Source: Bacteroidales bacterium (lineage in GTDB: Bacteria > Bacteroidota > Bacteroidia > Bacteroidales > ML635J-15). From it: a stretch of 64,000 nt of DNA. The stretch covers positions 1-64,000 of the forward strand of contig JAFZWY010000044.1 in the NCBI GenBank assembly GCA_017617125.1. Reading direction: 5' to 3'. This document shows, piece by piece, positions 41,312-50,430 of the stretch (positions are counted from its first letter, which is position 1; every line of letters starts with the position of its first letter). A model generated the notes under the pieces. The model saw only the letters and a list, made by a program, of their open reading frames with translations, was not told the DNA's origin and made no database searches. A program made the position numbers and the translations under genes.

Positions 41312-44300
41312 TTAGTTGTTTGTGTATTTTCTGAAATTTTCGGCTTGTTCGAATATTTCCTTGAAGACATCGTCCTGCGGTACGGGCGGGTAGTCGTGTG
41401 CAGCAAGGATTAGAATCAAGTCCATTTGCAGTTCGGCTTTTATGTCGGTGCGATTTGCCCAGTCGGTGTATTTCGATTTGTCGTCAACCATTTGCTTTAC
41501 GGCAGCCGATAATTTCAGCAGCTTGTCTTCGGGGTATTCGAATCCGAATTTGTGGGCAATCTCTTTCAGAATGTCATAAAATGCCTTTTCCTCGTATGTG
41601 ATGCCAAGGTCTTTGAACGATTTCTTCTCCTTGTTTACCTCTTTCAACAGTTCTGCCATTTGTGCCGCCACTTCTTCTAGCACTTTTTGTGCAAAAACAG
41701 CGTTGTCGCTACGGTCGTTGTACATATCTACCAATTGGTTGAGCCGTTTGGTGAAGTCAACGCCTTTCATTTTGTTCACCTTCTTGAAGTCGGTGATAAC
41801 GGAGCGAAGTAGCCGTTCCATAAGTTTTACCTTGGTGTTGGGCAGATTCAATTTTTCCAGCCGCGACATATATTCCTCGCTCAGTACGTCCAGATTTTTG
41901 GAATTGGCGTTCACTTGGGCGATTTCCTCCACGCCGTCAGATTGCAGGGCTTCTGCTATCATTTGGCTTACGTGCCTGTTCATTTGGGCAATGTCGGGGG
42001 CTTCGCCTTTGGTGAGTTTGTATATGATGGCGCGAACTCCTGTGAAGAAATGTATGTCTTCGCGGTCCTGATAGGTTATTTCCTCGTTGTTGGAGCAAAG
42101 GTTGTAAGCCGATTTCAGTTTCTTGGCGTGTCCCATGAAAAGGTTTTCGCTGGTGTCGGTGGTTTGGATGAATTCCGATGCGTTTTTCAGGCATTCAAGT
42201 TGCTCGAGTGGGGTGCCTGTTGAGAATTTTGACCTGTCGAATTTGTCGAACATACGGCGCAGAATGTCCAGTTCGTCTTTTACCAAAGTTACTGATTGTT
42301 CGATTGTTTCAACATTTACACCAATGCCTGCGCCTTCTGCGTATTGTTTCAGGGCAAAATTCATTTTGTTCTTTATGCCAATGTAATCTACAACCAAACC
42401 CTTGTCCTTGCCTTCGTACACACGATTTACCCTCGAAATGGTCTGAACCAGAGTGTGTTTTTGCAAGGGTTTGTCGATATACATTGTGTCGAGACAAGGC
42501 ACATCGAAACCTGTAATCCACATATCGACCACGATGGCGATTTTGAAATTTGATTTTTCGTTTTTGAATTCAAGGGCTGCCGCTTTTCTATCGTCATCGG
42601 TGCCAAGCAGTTCGTAAAGTTCTTTGTCATCGTCCTTGTTTCTCGTCATAATCAGTCTTATGCGGTCGCTTCCGTATTTTGCTGCCGGGTCGGCTGCCAT
42701 CGGGAGACTTTCTGCTGTTTCTTCTTCCTCGTTTTGTGTTGCCCAATCGGGACGGATGGCAAGAATCTGCTTGTATAGATTGTATGCTATCGCGCGGTTA
42801 GCACAGACAAACATTGCCTTGCCGCAGACTGTACTGCCTTCTTCGATGCGCTTTTCGTAGTGTTCGACAAAATCCCTTGCCACCGTTGCCAGACGCTCAG
42901 GATCGCCCAAAATGAGTTCCATTTTGGTGACAGCCTTCTTGCTTTCTTCTATCTGGTATTCGTTGGCGCCCTCGTCTGCACATTGTTCGTAGTATTCTTC
43001 TATTTCCTGCAGTTTCTGGTTGTCGGCAAATACTTTTGCAGCACGACCTTCGTAAACTATGCGCCGTGTTATTTCGTCGGCAACCGATTCTGTCATTGTA
43101 TAGGCATCGACCACATCGCCGAATACCTCGATAGTGGCATCCACGGGCGTTCCTGTGAAACCTACGTATGTGGCGTTTGGCAGCGATTTGTGCAGGTATG
43201 TTGCAAATCCGTAACTGCGTTGCACGCCTTTGTCGGTAACGCGGAAATTCTGTCCTATGTTGGTTTGCGAACGGTGTGCTTCGTCGGAAATGCAGATGAT
43301 GTTGGCTCGGTCGGAGAGAAGGTCGATGTCTTCGCTGAATTTCTGTATTGTCGTAAGGAATACGCCGCCGCTTTTTCGGTCGCGGAGCAGTTCTCCAAGT
43401 TGTTTGCGCGTTTCAACATTCTTTACGCATTCGTCGCCGATGAAAAGTTTAGCGTTTGTAAACAGTTCCGAAAGTTGCTCGTCAAGGTCGGTGCGGTCGG
43501 TTATAAGCACTATTGTTGGACTTGCAAGGTGGCGGCTGCGCATAAGTATGCGCGTGAGAAACAGCATTGTAAGGCTTTTCCCGCATCCGGTAGCACCGAA
43601 ATAGGTTCCACCCTTGCCATCGCCGTGAATATTTATGTGCGAATGTTCGAGAATGTTGTCGTATAGTTTGTGGGCGGCAAAGAACTGCGGATAGCGGCAC
43701 ACTATCTTCGTTTCCTTTGTGTAGTTGTCGGGGAAAAATACGAAATCCTTTATTACGCTCAGCAGTCTTTCCTTGCGGAAAAGTCCCTGCATCATTGTAA
43801 TGAGCGAACTGATGCCGTCGGTATTCTTGTCGGTGCTTTCCACCTTGCGCCAAGCATAGAAGAATTCGTAGTCGGTGAACAAACTGCCGTATTTGTTGTT
43901 TACTCCGTCGCTGATGACAACGAAGACATTGTATCTGAACAGGTTTGGAATGTCTCTGCGGTATCTCACAGTAAGTTGGGTGAAGGCATTCATTATGGTT
44001 GTGTCCTCCTTCACTGCACTCTTGAACTCCAGTACCACCACTGGCAAACCGTTGATGTAAACGATTCCATCGGGAATGCGTTTTTCTGTGCCTTTGATTT
44101 CCAGTTGGTTGACAATCTTGAAAATATTCTGTTCTGTATTTTCGAAATCAATGGGTTCGATGAATAGGTCGGGTAGGGATGCATCTTCTCGTTTTATTGC
44201 AAAGCCTTCGACCATAAGGCGGTGAACCAGTGCATTTTGTTCGTATAGTGAAGCACCGTTGTCGGTGGTAAGGCGGGCTATGGCTCGGTCGATTTCCAGC

Positions 44301-44473
44301 GGAGTAATGCCTTCGGTTGCATACCTGTCGGCAAGGTACATACGAAGGTCGCCGAGTAGCAGAACCTCCGACAGTTCCTTGTGTATGGTTTCGCCGTTGC
44401 GGTATTCATATCCCTGTTGTTCAAACAGTTCCATTATTGCCATTTCGAGGCTGTGTTCGTTGAAGTGTGGCAT
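41312..44473 (-). CDS. hsdR: Type I restriction enzyme R subunit
   Basis: ATP-driven DNA translocase and endonuclease of the type I restriction-modification complex; cuts unmodified DNA far from its target site. The N-terminal nuclease domain has the PD-(D/E)xK set Asp135, Glu149, Lys151 (RIPDGIVYI...VLEFKSA). The helicase core has Walker A GATGCGKS (293-300), DEAH (397-400) and a motif VI-like QTISRVNRVYEGK. The C-terminal part is helical, for binding HsdM. All 1,053 residues appear intact, so restriction activity is plausible. It starts 3 bases after the winged-helix gene, probably in the transcription unit that begins at the RAYT gene, apart from hsdM and hsdS. Confidence 0.96.
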   Translation of the reverse strand: MPHFNEHSLEMAIMELFEQQGYEYRNGETIHKELSEVLLLGDLRMYLADRYATEGITPLEIDRAIARLTTDNGASLYEQNALVHRLMVEGFAIKREDASLPDLFIEPIDFENTEQNIFKIVNQLEIKGTEKRIPDGIVYINGLPVVVLEFKSAVKEDTTIMNAFTQLTVRYRRDIPNLFRYNVFVVISDGVNNKYGSLFTDYEFFYAWRKVESTDKNTDGISSLITMMQGLFRKERLLSVIKDFVFFPDNYTKETKIVCRYPQFFAAHKLYDNILEHSHINIHGDGKGGTYFGATGCGKSLTMLFLTRILMRSRHLASPTIVLITDRTDLDEQLSELFTNAKLFIGDECVKNVETRKQLGELLRDRKSGGVFLTTIQKFSEDIDLLSDRANIICISDEAHRSQTNIGQNFRVTDKGVQRSYGFATYLHKSLPNATYVGFTGTPVDATIEVFGDVVDAYTMTESVADEITRRIVYEGRAAKVFADNQKLQEIEEYYEQCADEGANEYQIEESKKAVTKMELILGDPERLATVARDFVEHYEKRIEEGSTVCGKAMFVCANRAIAYNLYKQILAIRPDWATQNEEEETAESLPMAADPAAKYGSDRIRLIMTRNKDDDKELYELLGTDDDRKAAALEFKNEKSNFKIAIVVDMWITGFDVPCLDTMYIDKPLQKHTLVQTISRVNRVYEGKDKGLVVDYIGIKNKMNFALKQYAEGAGIGVNVETIEQSVTLVKDELDILRRMFDKFDRSKFSTGTPLEQLECLKNASEFIQTTDTSENLFMGHAKKLKSAYNLCSNNEEITYQDREDIHFFTGVRAIIYKLTKGEAPDIAQMNRHVSQMIAEALQSDGVEEIAQVNANSKNLDVLSEEYMSRLEKLNLPNTKVKLMERLLRSVITDFKKVNKMKGVDFTKRLNQLVDMYNDRSDNAVFAQKVLEEVAAQMAELLKEVNKEKKSFKDLGITYEEKAFYDILKEIAHKFGFEYPEDKLLKLSAAVKQMVDDKSKYTDWANRTDIKAELQMDLILILAAHDYPPVPQDDVFKEIFEQAENFRKYTNN

Positions 44474-44476
44474 TGG

Positions 44477-44932
44477 CTATTCTCCTTTTGTTAGTTCGTT
44501 GTATAATGCCAAACCCTTTACTGTCAGCAGATATTTTTGTCGCGGATGGCGTGGAGATTTAGGGTAGAGTAGGCGGACAAATTTATCCTTGATTGCTGGG
44601 TTGAGATAAACATCCATAAAGCTTTCCCTGTTCTTAAGACCTGCTTTGTCCATCATTTCTTTTATGGAAAAATTGTCTCTGCCAATAATGTTGATTAACT
44701 TTTTGATATGCAGGTTATTAGTATCGAACTTGTCGGGTAACTTGTCGGGTAGCTTGTCGGGTGTTTGTCCTGTGCTTGTCCTGTACTTGTCCTGTGTTTG
44801 TTCGCTTTCTGGCATCTTCCATTCTTCGGGCGGATTAATTATCATGTAGCGGTTTTTCAGTATGTTGTTCTCGCCAAGGAGCAAGTTGCTTTTGGTGGGC
44901 AATTGGTATAATATGGAAAGTATAATAATCAT
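44477..44932 (-). CDS. Small winged-helix protein in the hsd locus
   Basis: A 151-residue protein. Residues about 75-148 (LINIIGRDNFSIKEMMDKAGLKNRESFMDVYLNPAIKDKFVRLLYP, then PRQKYLLTVKGLALYNEL) match the winged-helix domain usually found at the C-terminus of Fic and Schlafen-like (AlbA) proteins. Before it comes a 12-base-period repeat encoding TPDKLPDKLPDKF, like the TPxxTP linkers of those proteins. The first 40 residues are not recognised. It could be a remnant of a longer gene or a free DNA-binding regulator. Its ATG overlaps the RAYT stop by ATGA and it ends 3 bases before hsdR. Confidence 0.65.
   Translation of the reverse strand: MIIILSILYQLPTKSNLLLGENNILKNRYMIINPPEEWKMPESEQTQDKYRTSTGQTPDKLPDKLPDKFDTNNLHIKKLINIIGRDNFSIKEMMDKAGLKNRESFMDVYLNPAIKDKFVRLLYPKSPRHPRQKYLLTVKGLALYNELTKGE
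44728..44800 (-). repeat. 12-base-period coding repeat in the winged-helix gene
   Basis: Plus-strand units run ACTTGTCGGGTA, ACTTGTCGGGTA, GCTTGTCGGGTG, then related TTGTCCTGTGC and TTGTCCTGTAC units. They encode the charged linker DKYRTSTGQ...PDKLPDKLPDKF and are a likely site of slippage in multiples of four residues. Confidence 0.8.
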
Positions 44933-45564
44933 TTTTTGTTCTGTTTGTTGATTTCCCAGTTTGCAACATTGTTTTCGATGTATTCTGCAATTCTGTTCAT
45001 TTCGGCCGAATCGCGGATGATTCGGTCATAAAAAAGGGTTTGCCAAGCAAATGGTAATGAATGTTCATGGGCATATTTTGTTATGGCAGATTTAATACCA
45101 CCGATGGCAACCGACAGCCATCCTTGCAAATTTGCAATGTCCCGATGTGATTTTGTGGGTTGCTGTAGATTAGTGGTGTCTTCTGTGGTGTCTTCTGTGG
45201 TGCCGCGGCGCGCCACGGCACCACTATAAGCACCACTATAAGCACCACTATTTGCACTATTGCCAACAGTTCTTCTTTCATAAGGGATTTTTTCATGGTC
45301 AATCATCACAATTGCATGAATATGGTCTGGCATGACAACCCACAAAGGTATTTCTGTATATGGATAATGTGCTGTTACATTCATGAATTGTTCATCGGCA
45401 AATTTGCCGACCTCCGACAGTTTCATTTTGCCATCGGCAATTTCACCAAGATAATGCATCCTGTCCTTAGTGCAGAAAGTTACAAAATATGCACCGCCAT
45501 CATAGCTGTGCCATTCTGCCCGCAGGTTTCTTGTTTGATATTTGCATTCTTGTTTATCTGCCAT
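44929..45564 (-). CDS. RAYT-like REP-associated Y1 transposase
   Basis: A 211-residue member of the Y1/HUH superfamily (IS200-like TnpA relatives, RAYT). Visible features: SYDGGAYFVTFCTKDR (first strand), the HUH pair H81-I-H83 in MPDHIHAIVM, and the catalytic Tyr179 in WQTLFYDRIIRD followed by IAEYIENNVANWE. RAYTs are single-copy genes that cut and join repetitive extragenic palindromes. Residues about 101-139, between HUH and the helix, are a repetitive linker (SGAY x2.5, VARRG, TTED x2) produced by the DNA array at 45173-45248. It has its own TATATTTG promoter just after a terminator and overlaps the next gene by ATGA. No flanking transposon ends are evident. Confidence 0.85.
   Translation of the reverse strand: MADKQECKYQTRNLRAEWHSYDGGAYFVTFCTKDRMHYLGEIADGKMKLSEVGKFADEQFMNVTAHYPYTEIPLWVVMPDHIHAIVMIDHEKIPYERRTVGNSANSGAYSGAYSGAVARRGTTEDTTEDTTNLQQPTKSHRDIANLQGWLSVAIGGIKSAITKYAHEHSLPFAWQTLFYDRIIRDSAEMNRIAEYIENNVANWEINKQNKK
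45173..45248. repeat. Symmetric hexamer array around a GC-rich palindrome inside the RAYT gene
   Basis: GTGGTG occurs at 45173, 45185 and 45197; CACCAC occurs at 45219, 45231 and 45243, all with 12-base spacing and mirror-symmetric about 45210.5. Spacers are TCTTCT on the left and TATAAG on the right. The centre CCGCGGCGCGCCACGG contains GGCGCGCC and is a near-perfect palindrome. The array keeps the RAYT reading frame open. Confidence 0.9.
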
Positions 45565-45720: not shown

Positions 45721-46098
45721 TCAATAAATAGGATATCGATCATATTTGTCATTTTCGGCTTTGTCATAGATGCCATTAACCTTACAATGCGGACAAAAAT
45801 ATTCTCCGTGATACTTATGCGTCTGAATCAATTTTCTGTCACTATCCCAACAATGTGAACAATAAAAGATGTTATTTTCATCGTCTTTTAAGGTTAGGTA
45901 AAGTTCTTGATGGCGTACAATGCGCTCTTCTAAATCTTGTCTTTTTTTTAGTTCGGAATTCTCTTCCGTTAATTTATTTATAGTGGCTTGCATGTCTAAT
46001 GCTTGTGCGCTTAAATCGATTAGTTGACGATATAATTCAACATTGTCTGCTTTTTGAACAATCTTTGCAACATCTTTTATTCCTTCGTAAAGTCCCAT
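45721..46098 (-). CDS. Coiled-coil and zinc-ribbon protein next to hsdS
   Basis: A 125-residue protein of no assigned function. The N-terminal half is an amphipathic coiled coil (YRQLIDLSAQALDMQATINKLTEENSELKKRQDLEERIV). The C-terminal half has a zinc ribbon, CSHCWDSDRKLIQTHKYHGEYFCPHC. Its start is 24 bases after the hsdS stop and a terminator follows, so it is co-transcribed with hsdS. It may modulate the restriction complex or bind DNA or RNA; this is inference from position. Confidence 0.75.
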   Translation of the reverse strand: MGLYEGIKDVAKIVQKADNVELYRQLIDLSAQALDMQATINKLTEENSELKKRQDLEERIVRHQELYLTLKDDENNIFYCSHCWDSDRKLIQTHKYHGEYFCPHCKVNGIYDKAENDKYDRYPIY

Positions 46099-46122: not shown

Positions 46123-47193
46123 TTATTTTCCCATCTTTCCCAGCAACAAAGATAACAAATCTTTTAATTTGCTTGTTTCTTTATTCATTATTTCTGTGTT
46201 GTTAAAAATAACCGACATTTCTTCATCGAAATTTTTCAATACTTCTGGTGTTGGGATTATTATGACAATTTGATTCAAAATGTTAGTTGTCATGCTAGGA
46301 ACAGCTGAACCTGCATCCATCGCAATAAAATCATATTGTTTCAAATTGAAAAATACATATTTCGCGAGGTGTGGTTGTTTCATTTCTGTGTAGAACATTG
46401 TATCCACAGTCCAAAAAGGTTCATTAATATACATAATGTTGTTTAGAGAACCTTTTCTTGGTATTAATACGGATTCTTCTGTGCATATAGATTTATTCCC
46501 ATGTCTCATAATACCGCCAGAACCGTAAATAGGTATTAATCCGTTAGGAATTCCTTCGTGGGCTTTCCCGTATTTTATTTCGCATACTTCTCCCAACGTT
46601 CCCATTCTCCAACCTTCCGGCAAATTTTCCTTGTCAATCCCCTCCACAAACATTTTCCTATACAATGCCTGTGCGGTTTCCTCCAATTTGGCAATCATCT
46701 GCTCGTTGAGGCGGATGCGGTTGGTTAGCGTAGCGTATTCGGCAACTATCTCGTGCTGGCGGGCAATAGGGGGGACGGGGAGTCGCATATTGCAGAAATC
46801 GTCCCAGGTCAAACTGCCACGAACTCCGCCAACAGCATAGTAACTGGCTTCTCGGTCAAATTCGCTGCGAGAGAACCACATCATCAAGTATTGTGGCAAT
46901 AATTTCGTTTTGTCAATGATTTCAAACATAGGATATGCAGGCGACATAATAGCCTCGTTCCCTTCAAACATAGCTATTGGCATTTTCCCATCGCGACTAA
47001 CCTGCATCAAACTGCAAGCAAATTGTTCGCTTCTGATTACTTTATAGTTTGAAAGGTCGGTCCCTATTACATTTGCAACCGAAGGAATAAATGCTTTGTC
47101 AATCGTAAGTCCAACAAGCTTTGTAACCTTCAAATCGCTGTTTCGGACATTCACTTCGCGTATGTATTCGCCTAGGGGGTGGTATGTAGTCAT
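46123..47193 (-). CDS. hsdS: Type I restriction specificity subunit
   Basis: DNA-recognition subunit of the type I system, reading a bipartite target. Its 356 residues contain two target-recognition domains (about 1-140 and 200-310) each followed by a helical spacer: LPVPPIARQHEIVAEYATLTNRIRLNEQMIAKLEETAQALY and IPTPEVLKNFDEEMSVIFNNTEIMNKETSKLKDL. TRD2 begins PEGWRMGTLGEVCEIKYGKAHEG, the usual motif. The first TRD is rather short. Only one hsdS is present and there are no inverted TRD cassettes or recombinase, so phase variation by inversion is not indicated here. It has its own promoter. Confidence 0.95.
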   Translation of the reverse strand: MTTYHPLGEYIREVNVRNSDLKVTKLVGLTIDKAFIPSVANVIGTDLSNYKVIRSEQFACSLMQVSRDGKMPIAMFEGNEAIMSPAYPMFEIIDKTKLLPQYLMMWFSRSEFDREASYYAVGGVRGSLTWDDFCNMRLPVPPIARQHEIVAEYATLTNRIRLNEQMIAKLEETAQALYRKMFVEGIDKENLPEGWRMGTLGEVCEIKYGKAHEGIPNGLIPIYGSGGIMRHGNKSICTEESVLIPRKGSLNNIMYINEPFWTVDTMFYTEMKQPHLAKYVFFNLKQYDFIAMDAGSAVPSMTTNILNQIVIIIPTPEVLKNFDEEMSVIFNNTEIMNKETSKLKDLLSLLLGKMGK

Positions 47194-47216: not shown

Positions 47217-47224
47217 CAAAGATA
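47217..47224 (-). promoter_or_regulatory. -7 element (TATCTTTG) for hsdS
   Basis: CAAAGATA on the plus strand, 23 bases before the hsdS start codon. Confidence 0.65.
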
Positions 47225-47256
47225 ATTGTTTTATAGAATGAGCAATAAGGGAAAAT

Positions 47257-47283
47257 AGGGGAAATTTAGAGAAATTTTCCCCT
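47257..47283. promoter_or_regulatory. Inverted repeat upstream of the hsdS promoter
   Basis: AGGGGAAATTT and AAATTTTCCCCT form an imperfect inverted repeat (one-base bulge) covering the -33 to -70 region of hsdS. It could be an operator; no T-run makes it an unlikely terminator for fic. Confidence 0.45.
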
Positions 47284-47319
47284 AATTTTGGGTACTTAGT
47301 ATGATGTTTGTGTCTTGCT

Positions 47320-47353
47320 AATTCTTTATAATTTATAAACATTTATAAAGTTT
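47320..47353. repeat. 34-bp direct repeat flanking fic, left copy
   Basis: AATTCTTTATAATTTATAAA followed by CATTTATAAAGTTT. It differs from the copy at 48708-48741 at one base (by eye). It is internally palindromic (CTTTATAA...TTATAAAG) and overlaps the last 11 bases of fic. Confidence 0.85.
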
Positions 47354-48662
47354 CTTTCTTGATTTGGGCAATAGCATCATTAAATCTTGCTCCTTTGACA
47401 TACCCTTTCTTTACCTTGTTGATTGATATTTCTTCAAGTATTCCGCGCTCAACAAGTCCTACGATATCGCGTTTTGCAGTCATGGCAGTGACGGAAAATT
47501 TGATTTCGAAGTCTTTGACGGTATGTATTTCTTTGGGTTTGTCAATATATAGCTGAATGATTTGTGCTTGGCGTTCGTTGATGTTGCCAAGTAGCATAAA
47601 CGAAGAAGCGGCTTCTTTCTCAGCTGTTTTGCGCTGGATGTATTGTTGAAGCTGTTGGAATGCCTTCTGTAGGACATTTAGATTGTATGTTACAAAATAA
47701 CCGATGTCGTTGCCGTCCATTTCTGTGTAGCGGAACGATTTTTCGTAGCTATTCTTTGAACGTGCTATGATTCTTGAAATCGATAGATATTCTGTCATCC
47801 AATATTTTTCTTTCAGCATATACCAATAAAAAAGTGCACGCGCTGTGCGTCCGTTGCCATCAACGAATGGGTGCATATATGCTACCATGAAGTGTATAAT
47901 GATTCCCCTGATAATAGGGTGGATGAATGTCTGATAAGCGTCTGTGTTGAATACTGTACAAAGTGTATCGACAAATTCCGGTATATCATTGACCGATGGT
48001 GGCCTATGGACGATTTCGTTTTCCATTATGTTCGCTACTACGACATCATCGTTGTCGCGGAAACGCCCTGCAGCATCAGGATTGTCGATGGCATTATCCG
48101 TCATTAGTTTGTGGATGAGCAAAAGGTTTTCCTTGGTAAGCGGTTCATCCCGATGATTGACTATATATTGTATGGTGTTATAGTTGTTTACAATCATCTG
48201 CTGCGATTTGTTTTTAGGCGATATCTTTTTGCGAAGCATTTCTTTTGCAACGACGCGAGTTGTTGATGCACCTTCCATCTGGCTCGATGATATTGCTTCC
48301 TCCATCAGCGAACTGACAAGGTACCGCTCTTTATCTTGAGTCGGTAATATGGATTCACTGCCCCAAAAACCGCCGAAATTCATATCTAACTCATGACATG
48401 TTTGTTGCATGTAGTTGGTTATGCACATGTGAATGCCGTATTTGTCCCAAAGTATTGTATTCTTCATAAGTCGTGACAACTTTACATAATTCCAAAGTTG
48501 TTCTGCAGAATAACCTTCCGGACGCTTTTTGTACTTTACACTGTCCCAATATTCATATTCGTCGTTTATTTTGTTTATAAGCGGTTCAAGTTGGGAATAT
48601 TTAGGCGTCATTATTGTGCTGACGAGTTCTAGATAGTTTGTTGTTGGCGGTTTTTCAATCAT
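47343..48662 (-). CDS. fic: Fic family protein with C-terminal winged helix
   Basis: Fic-domain enzyme, expected to transfer AMP (or another nucleotide part) from NTP to a protein hydroxyl. The active-site loop HPFVDGNGR (264-272) is complete. An N-terminal inhibitory helix is present, Ser126-x3-Glu130-Gly131 (SSQMEG), defining a class II self-inhibited Fic. The last 100 residues (INERQAQIIQLYIDKPKEIHTVKDFEIKFSVTAMTAKRDIVGLVERGILEEI) are a winged helix likely to bind DNA. The 439 residues look intact. It lies between hsdM and hsdS, bracketed by 34-bp direct repeats, and has two TATTTTTG elements upstream. Autoregulation through the palindromic repeat is a reasonable hypothesis. Confidence 0.93.
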   Translation of the reverse strand: MIEKPPTTNYLELVSTIMTPKYSQLEPLINKINDEYEYWDSVKYKKRPEGYSAEQLWNYVKLSRLMKNTILWDKYGIHMCITNYMQQTCHELDMNFGGFWGSESILPTQDKERYLVSSLMEEAISSSQMEGASTTRVVAKEMLRKKISPKNKSQQMIVNNYNTIQYIVNHRDEPLTKENLLLIHKLMTDNAIDNPDAAGRFRDNDDVVVANIMENEIVHRPPSVNDIPEFVDTLCTVFNTDAYQTFIHPIIRGIIIHFMVAYMHPFVDGNGRTARALFYWYMLKEKYWMTEYLSISRIIARSKNSYEKSFRYTEMDGNDIGYFVTYNLNVLQKAFQQLQQYIQRKTAEKEAASSFMLLGNINERQAQIIQLYIDKPKEIHTVKDFEIKFSVTAMTAKRDIVGLVERGILEEISINKVKKGYVKGARFNDAIAQIKKETL

Positions 48663-48685
48663 GTTAGCATATATTTTTTAGGCTG

Positions 48686-48701
48686 CAAAAATACAAAAAT
48701 A
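48686..48701 (-). promoter_or_regulatory. Two overlapping -7 candidates (TATTTTTG) for fic
   Basis: CAAAAATA occurs at 48686-48693 and again at 48694-48701 on the plus strand. The palindromic repeat at 48708-48741 covers the corresponding -33 region. Confidence 0.55.
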
Positions 48702-48707
48702 TTTTAT

Positions 48708-48741
48708 AATTCTTTATAATTTATAAACAATTATAAAGTTT
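48708..48741. repeat. 34-bp direct repeat flanking fic, right copy (possible operator)
   Basis: Contains CTTTATAATT-TATAAAC-AATTATAAAG, a perfect 10-bp inverted repeat with a 7-base spacer. It lies between fic and the end of hsdM and overlaps the fic -33 region. Confidence 0.85.
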
Positions 48742-48773
48742 TATAATAAATGATAATATTAATGTGTTGAATA

Positions 48774-50330
48774 TCAGAGTTTATACCCTAATTTTTCAAA
48801 AAGCTTTTTCAGTTCCTCTTTGCTATCTTCTTCCTGCTTCAGTAGTTCACGCATATCGTTTTGAAGTTCAAGCATTTTGGTGTCGAAGTCAATCTGCTCG
48901 TCGCGGTTGCGGAACTCTATGTATTTGCTCGGCACAAGGCTCCAGCCTTTCTGCTCTATTTCTTCGGTGGTTGCCGAGTAGCAGTATTCGGGTGTGTCGT
49001 GGTATTCCGACGAGCCTCTTTGCCAAGCGTGGAAATTGCCAGCAATCTGGCCTATTTGTTCCGAACTGAACTGTATGTATTTCTTCTCGAAAGGTTCTCC
49101 CCATTGGCGCAGGTCGATGAAAAGCACTTCGTTTTCGCGGTCGCGGTATTTCACCATCTTGCCATTCTGCTCTGCGGTGCGTGCTTTCTTGTTCTTGTTC
49201 AGAATCCATAATGTTACGCTTATGTCGGTGGAGTAGAACATATTGCGTGGCAGTATTACAATGGCTTCCACAAGATGGTTTTTCAGCAGTTGCTTGCGAA
49301 TCTCTAGTTCGGTGCCGTCGCCGCTCAGTGCTCCGTTTGCCAAAAGAAAGCCCGCAGTGCCGTTTGCCGAAAGTTTTGATACAATGTTTAGAATCCATCC
49401 GTAGTTGGCGTTGCTGGTAGGTGGCACTTCGTAGCCCACCCAGCGTGGATCATCAACAAGTTCCGTTTCGGCTCGCCACGCTTTCTGGTTGAATGGCGGA
49501 TTTGCCATTATAAAGTCGGCTTTCAAGGTCTTGTGCTGGTCGTTGTGGAAAGTGTCGGCGGCCATATCGCCAAGGTTGCAGGCTATGCCACGTATGGCAA
49601 GGTTCATTTTCGCCAGTTTGTAGGTGGTGTTGGTGTATTCCTGTCCGTAAACCGAAATGTCCTTCTTGTTTCCGTGGTGCGCCTCTATGAATTTCATGCT
49701 TTGCACAAACATACCTCCCGAACCGCAACATGGGTCGTAGATTTTTCCGCGATAAGGCTCAATCATTTCGGCAATCAGGTTTACAATGCTCTTGGGTGTG
49801 TAGTATTCGCCTTTGCCCTTGCCTTCGGCAATAGCGAACTTGCCGAGAAAATATTCGTAAACACGTCCAATAAGGTCGTTTTCGCGATCTTTCAGGGTGT
49901 CAATCTTGTTTATTTCGTCGAGTAGTGCGGCAAGTTTTGTGCGGTCGAGCGACAACCCTGCATAGTAGTTGTTGGGCAATGCGCCTTTCAGTGTCGGGTT
50001 GCTGTCCTCAACCTTTGCCAATGCCTTGTCTATCTTAATGGCAATGTCGTTCTGCTTGGCGTTTTCGATAAGGTAGTCCCACCGGCTTTCGGGTTCCAGG
50101 TAGAAAACATTCTTGGCATTGTAGAACACAGGATTGTCGGCAAATGCTTCTTTGCCATCCGCAACCAGTTCGTCGCGCCTTTCTGCAAAACGGTCGGTGG
50201 CGTATTTTAGGAATATTAGACTTAATACAACATGCTTATATTGAGATGGTTCTACGGAACCACGCAATTTGTTCGCCGATTCCCATAGGGCTTCTTCAAT
50301 GCTTTTCTCGTTTATGATTTTTTTCGCCAT
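48774..50330 (-). CDS. hsdM: Type I restriction-modification methyltransferase subunit
   Basis: Adenine-N6 methyltransferase of the type I complex. The N-terminal helical domain (SIEEALWESANKLRGSVEPSQYKHVVLSLIFLKYATDRF) precedes the catalytic domain with the SAM-binding motif DPCCGSGGMF and the catalytic motif NPPF (MANPPFNQKAW). YTPKSIVNLIAEMI is the usual lead-in to motif I. A C-terminal coiled coil ends the 518 residues. No defect is visible. It is the first gene of the island in the direction of transcription; a weak TATCTTTA element is at 50352-50359. Confidence 0.97.
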   Translation of the reverse strand: MAKKIINEKSIEEALWESANKLRGSVEPSQYKHVVLSLIFLKYATDRFAERRDELVADGKEAFADNPVFYNAKNVFYLEPESRWDYLIENAKQNDIAIKIDKALAKVEDSNPTLKGALPNNYYAGLSLDRTKLAALLDEINKIDTLKDRENDLIGRVYEYFLGKFAIAEGKGKGEYYTPKSIVNLIAEMIEPYRGKIYDPCCGSGGMFVQSMKFIEAHHGNKKDISVYGQEYTNTTYKLAKMNLAIRGIACNLGDMAADTFHNDQHKTLKADFIMANPPFNQKAWRAETELVDDPRWVGYEVPPTSNANYGWILNIVSKLSANGTAGFLLANGALSGDGTELEIRKQLLKNHLVEAIVILPRNMFYSTDISVTLWILNKNKKARTAEQNGKMVKYRDRENEVLFIDLRQWGEPFEKKYIQFSSEQIGQIAGNFHAWQRGSSEYHDTPEYCYSATTEEIEQKGWSLVPSKYIEFRNRDEQIDFDTKMLELQNDMRELLKQEEDSKEELKKLFEKLGYKL

Positions 50331-50364: not shown

Positions 50365-50400
50365 AAATAATCACATTGCATATCTCTGCAATGTGATTAT
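50365..50400 (-). terminator. Terminator between the SDR fusion gene and hsdM
   Basis: AATAATCACATTGCA and TGCAATGTGATTATT form a 15-bp perfect stem with a six-base loop. On the minus strand it is followed by TTTTTTG. It marks the upstream border of the restriction island. Confidence 0.8.
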
Positions 50401-50430
50401 TGATGATTCAATATTCAAAAAAAGTTTCCT

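Follow-up and report, generated by a model that had tools for sequence, protein, structure and literature searches.

A paired 35-bp palindrome around a fic gene in a Bacteroidales type I restriction-modification locus, and its probable use by the Fic protein to control its own gene

The window analyzed here, a stretch of 64,000 nucleotides from a Bacteroidales bacterium, carries a type I restriction-modification (R-M) locus. The hsd genes lie on the reverse strand, with hsdM, encoding the methyltransferase, at 48774-50330, hsdS, encoding the specificity subunit, at 46123-47193, and hsdR, encoding the endonuclease, at 41312-44473. Between hsdM and hsdS, and on the same strand, is a fic gene (47343-48662) coding for a protein of 439 aa. 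The likely -7 box of fic, TATTTTTG, was located at 48686-48693 of the reverse strand, with a second match to the same pattern 6 bp from it, and that of hsdS, TATCTTTG, at 47217-47224, also on the reverse strand.

The fic gene is bracketed by two copies of a 35-nt repeat (47319-47353 and 48707-48741) that are identical at 34 of their 35 bases. An earlier note on this DNA had described two repeats that differ at one base, each of them an inverted repeat, and this description holds, except that the 34-bp length it gave covers most of an element whose complete form is a 35-bp frame at about 47320-47354 and 48708-48742. On the fic strand, the right copy reads CTTTATAATT-GTTTATA-AATTATAAAG, which corresponds to the 10-bp arms previously noted plus a 7-bp spacer, and in the left copy the arms mismatch at one position. 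The right repeat, or upstream copy (48707-48742, reverse strand), follows the frame AATT-CTTTAT-AATT-N7-AATT-ATAAAG-TTTT, and adjoins the fic promoter, with 14 bp between its end and the TAnnTTTG box (48686-48693) downstream of it. The left repeat, or downstream copy (47319-47354, reverse strand), overlaps the final codons and the stop codon of fic. No third copy was found in the 2,879,044-bp genome when the 27-bp core pattern was searched allowing up to 3 mismatches.

The Fic protein carries the motif HPFVDGNGR at residues 264-272 and an inhibitory motif, SSQMEG, at residues 126-131, in agreement with the HPFx[DE]GNGR motif and the N-terminal [ST]xxxE[GN] inhibitory helix of class II enzymes, and the key residues of both are invariant in a 38-row alignment of its relatives; based on these motifs, it is classified as a predicted class II Fic AMPylase. 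The Fic domain (E 1.7e-16) was the sole domain found by the Pfam search, which returned no helix-turn-helix (HTH) match. The AlphaFold model of the protein (m6eb5f7cd4108, mean pLDDT 86.9) has a C-terminal winged helix at residues 363-423, made of three helices and a wing (H363-374, H382-389, H393-405, E409-413, and E419-423), as the earlier note had proposed, with SVTAMTAKRDIVGL as the recognition helix (393-405). Solved structures nearest in fold to the model include SoFic and Coxiella Fic2. The protein matched the PADLOC model for SoFic with an E value of 1.6e-41, and scored 51.8 bits against the NCBIfam SoFic equivalog, the cut-off of which is 550. The PADLOC match would make it a defence-type Fic, with a putative role in protection from phages.

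We fetched 80 relatives of this protein, 43-95% identical to it, many from metagenome-assembled genomes, and obtained 79 upstream and 78 downstream flanks; as these relatives share ancestry, the operator counts that follow are not independent. A significant inverted repeat was present in 62/79 upstream and 31/78 downstream flanks. The frame common to these sites is AATT-N6-AATT-N7-AATT-N6'-AATT, 35 bp in length with half-sites of 14 bp, and could be recognized upstream of 69 of the 79 genes (compared to 8/395 shuffled flanks) and downstream of 32 of the 78 (2/390 shuffles). With the spacer length free to vary from 5 to 11 bp, a value of 7 was best in 69/69 upstream and 31/32 downstream frames. 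A convincing upstream site was absent in 10/79 relatives, some of which may have a misplaced start or contig. This operator family accompanies the Fic family throughout the Bacteroidales and in Treponema, and is nearly confined to the vicinity of fic, with 108 operators near the gene versus 1 elsewhere in 673,672 bp of locus DNA. The distance from the operator end to the TAnnTTTG box falls into three groups one helical turn apart, namely 2-3 bp (21 loci), 12-15 bp (25 loci), and 23-25 bp (15 loci), with a resultant R of 0.93 at a period of 10.5 bp. A single upstream copy phased to the promoter is the usual state among relatives, and because it precedes the promoter box, it would act as DNA and not as part of the fic message.

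The sequence of the N6 core follows two residues of the recognition helix, which are the X and the K or R of the pattern X-[TS]-A-[KR], with one clear exception. Counted per half-site, proteins with a T..K helix are associated with CTTTCC in 62/64 cases, those with M or A..K, the class of the window, where the two residues are M394 and K397, with CTTTAT in 15/16, and those with M..R with CTTGxx in 42/44 by class (TTGC or TTGA core; in full, CTTGC[TA] or [CT]TTGAT). A helix with K or R..R goes with a TCCYCT-like core, and Q..R with a variable, TYTCCW-like one (TCTCCT, TTTCCT, or TTTCCA). A tree was built from which the winged helix was left out, and on it we counted 7 changes of operator class and 10 of the helix pair. 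CTTTAT is found in two places on this tree, in the clade of the window, inside the M..R group, and in L051, which lies elsewhere on a long branch and has an A..K helix. Four loci that were fetched later (G007, G024, G313, and G329) matched the code. The exception is L197, a fecal contig labelled as phage, where a T..K helix is accompanied by CTTGCA sites, which indicates that specificity needs more than the two helix residues; apart from this contig, plasmid and phage collections contained only distant Fic relatives.

Because the 35-bp site changes in step with the Fic protein, Fic probably controls its own gene, and we regard it as very probable that the two repeats are operator copies of the flanking Fic and that fic is autoregulatory. 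The features that carry this reading were all obtained from sequence, and are the frame, its phasing to the promoter, its association with fic, the joint variation of its core and the recognition helix, and the winged helix predicted by the model; from them we infer that Fic binds the site and represses, rather than activates, the gene. Under this reading, each 35-bp site would be occupied by a Fic dimer, whose two winged helices would each read an AATT-N6-AATT half-site, with the centers of the half-sites 21 bp, or two helical turns, apart. A dimer on the upstream copy would sit next to the -33 region or cover it, in phase with the -7 box, and would keep fic expression low. The copy at the stop codon would most likely strengthen this repression through looping of the 1.39-kb fic gene, or could act as a roadblock that insulates fic from transcription of hsdM upstream and of hsdS downstream, although either role is a guess. 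A defence-type AMPylating enzyme residing inside a restriction locus would, in other words, probably be in control of its own gene.

Some features of this arrangement are known from other systems. CccR, a Fic-HTH protein of Yersinia pseudotuberculosis, is an autorepressor that binds, as a dimer, an inverted repeat within its own promoter (PMC9755527), and shares with the window Fic a Fic domain followed by a C-terminal HTH, here the winged helix of the AlphaFold model, as well as an inverted repeat at its own promoter, here the right repeat, with counterparts in 69/79 relatives. The geometry of the CccR operator, however, is different, with two 10-bp boxes and a 26-bp spacer instead of 14-bp half-sites and a 7-bp spacer; furthermore, CccR is a type VI effector, and the portion of that report available to us describes neither a second site after the gene nor an R-M locus (PMC9755527). 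SoFic proteins provide anti-phage defence (PMC12249575), and resemble the window Fic in the PADLOC match and in a similar fold with a C-terminal winged helix, but the two are only about 18% identical in the fold match, an antitoxin gene, AS1, lies downstream in E. coli, and no operator is reported for SoFic. DNA binding by SoFic had not been demonstrated as of PMC10628234. Fic2 of Coxiella burnetii, another class II Fic with a winged helix, was demonstrated to bind DNA; it differs in that no specific site is known, that DNA binding stimulates its activity, and that its target is histone H3 (PMC10628234). Our literature search, which covered few subscription papers, returned no earlier description of this Fic operator family, and no paper linking Fic operators to hsd loci. 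The conserved 35-bp site and the link between helix and bases make DNA binding by SoFic-type proteins directly testable, and allow operators of many Fic genes to be predicted. More generally, our results suggest that anti-phage Fic enzymes might use their DNA-binding tail to silence their own expression.

At many loci, a second operator, of the class found upstream, lies no more than about 15 bp from the fic stop codon, and the two copies of one locus are alike (mean 17.6 versus 9.96 for permuted pairs; 0/5000). In L010 and L011, the Fic proteins of which are 95% identical, the arms are kept and the spacer of the downstream copy is GTTGCAA versus the GTTTATA of the window, which means that it is the arms that are conserved; the near-identity of the window copies may in part reflect recent local homogenisation. 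As one of two explanations, the earlier note had proposed that the repeats are operators through which Fic represses both itself and hsdS. The conserved frame, its phasing to the promoter, and its change in step with the recognition helix strongly favor the part of this proposal that concerns the fic gene's own site, whereas the part on hsdS lacks a tie between operator and hsd genes. That Fic is a dedicated type I R-M controller, with the left copy repressing hsdS in addition to fic, would agree with the position of this copy between fic and hsdS, with the recurrence of the hsdM-fic-hsdS order in relatives, and with two loci of the TCCYCT class (L068 and L074) where fic and hsdS are divergent and one operator sits between both promoters. 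Repression of type I R-M defence islands by a local repressor with sites in its own promoter does have a precedent in RptR, although this is a 9-kDa, non-enzymatic protein that recognizes TAGCTA sites and is found mainly in Gammaproteobacteria (PMC12255303). Many fic genes without hsd neighbors, however, also have the downstream copy (18/45, versus 14/24 of the hsd-linked ones), the tree implies 13 changes of this trait, and its association with hsd linkage was not significant in a test based on the few independent pairs that the tree provides. Many hsdM-fic-hsdS loci, moreover, do without the downstream copy, and its absence in most relatives indicates that it is not needed for basic function. 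The window hsdS also has its own promoter, beside an operator of a different class. Fic may control hsdS, but we consider a dedicated controller role rather doubtful.

A different explanation, also put forward in the earlier note, is that the repeats served as recombination sites for the gain or loss of a fic cassette, and there is little doubt that fic moves. The same chromosomal site is empty in two congeners (L155 and L156), which have neither fic nor a repeat, holds fic alone with one operator in G024, fic alone, of another class and with two operators, in G010, and R-M plus fic in the window and in G007. The window and G007 share an hsdM that is 98% identical and a fic that is only 61% identical, while with G008 and G022 it is fic that is 95% and hsdM 68% identical. 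Along the sequence, the window and G007 are 88-99% alike through hsdM, fall apart at about 48880, and return to 98-100% near 46150; a similarity of 82-98% to G008 is confined to about 48850-47200, and the flanking hsd genes of the two are mostly 55-80% alike. Judging from these patterns, the fic module is exchanged between loci, but the similarity breaks indicate a unit that includes both operators and the hsdS promoter, reaches beyond the left repeat as far as the hsdS start, and hence does not have the repeats as its boundaries. For hsdM relatives, an operator is present at 7/7 fic-bearing junctions, and a repeat is missing from every scorable fic-less junction except the one in G300. The latter is the only instance we found of the junction that the earlier note suggested looking for, with a single repeat and no fic between hsdM and hsdS; its operator, the only match to its class in that genome, is decayed, a state consistent with fic having been lost when copies recombined. 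The spacer that the two window copies share, and that differs in L010 and L011, could also speak for recombination. Nonetheless, with empty sites and nearly all fic-less junctions devoid of a repeat, an exchange that passes the left repeat, and a single promoter-phased copy as the usual state, cassette gain between the repeats appears improbable. Far less credible still is that the palindromes are terminators, RNA hairpins, or REP-type elements mobilized by the REP-associated tyrosine transposase-like (RAYT) gene at 44929-45564. The repeats are palindromic and that gene is nearby, but they are AT-rich, number only two in the genome, and track the Fic helix in sequence, and the copy most often present in relatives precedes the promoter box.

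Besides the two repeats, a third 35-bp operator of another class, TCCCCT (AATTAGGGGA...TCCCCTATTT), lies at 47253-47287 on the reverse strand, directly upstream of the hsdS promoter, and matches the frame at 14/16 positions and the palindrome at 6/6. An hsdS-type promoter is also found divergent from fic genes of the TCCYCT class, and faces hsdS in L068 and L074. A genome search revealed no further copy of this class in the genome of the window, and no close relative of a cognate Fic for this GGGG operator was seen there (91% complete), in G008, or in G022. The site therefore looks like a relic of an earlier fic. A relic CTTTCC site also stands beside a fic of class CTTGAT in G313. One could speculate, quite tentatively, that this is a large family of defence-type Fic proteins with diversifying, distinct operators read by a few helix residues, in which Fic would be a switch of its host locus that silences its own gene and, depending on the layout, sometimes the restriction genes too; neighboring copies of different classes would thereby avoid cross-talk when swapped between loci.

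A few other observations on the locus are worth reporting. In G007 (L136, 7808-8900), the downstream operator is replaced by an extra gene between fic and hsdS, which may encode a DUF1016/YhcG-type nuclease. The RAYT-like gene lies between hsdS and hsdR and has 12-nt repeats within it. A gene at 45721-46098, found after hsdS in several relatives and near-identical in G007, encodes a 125-aa protein with CxxC pairs and a weak match to the defence protein LmuB. Directly preceding the likely hsdM promoter box, at 50366-50401, is an inverted repeat with perfectly matching 15-bp arms (AATAATCACATTGCA / TGCAATGTGATTATT) and a 6-nt loop, and a run of T comes after it; the arms are kept and the loop is altered in G007, and the repeat could be either a terminator or a separate hsdM operator. 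Finally, a small gene at 44477-44932, with a Fic-like C-terminal domain, contains adjoining tandem repeats of 12 nt (3 copies) and 11 nt (4.5 copies) at 44727-44801, an array that differs in G007, and it is conceivable that frame shifts through the 11-nt unit would subject this gene to phase variation.
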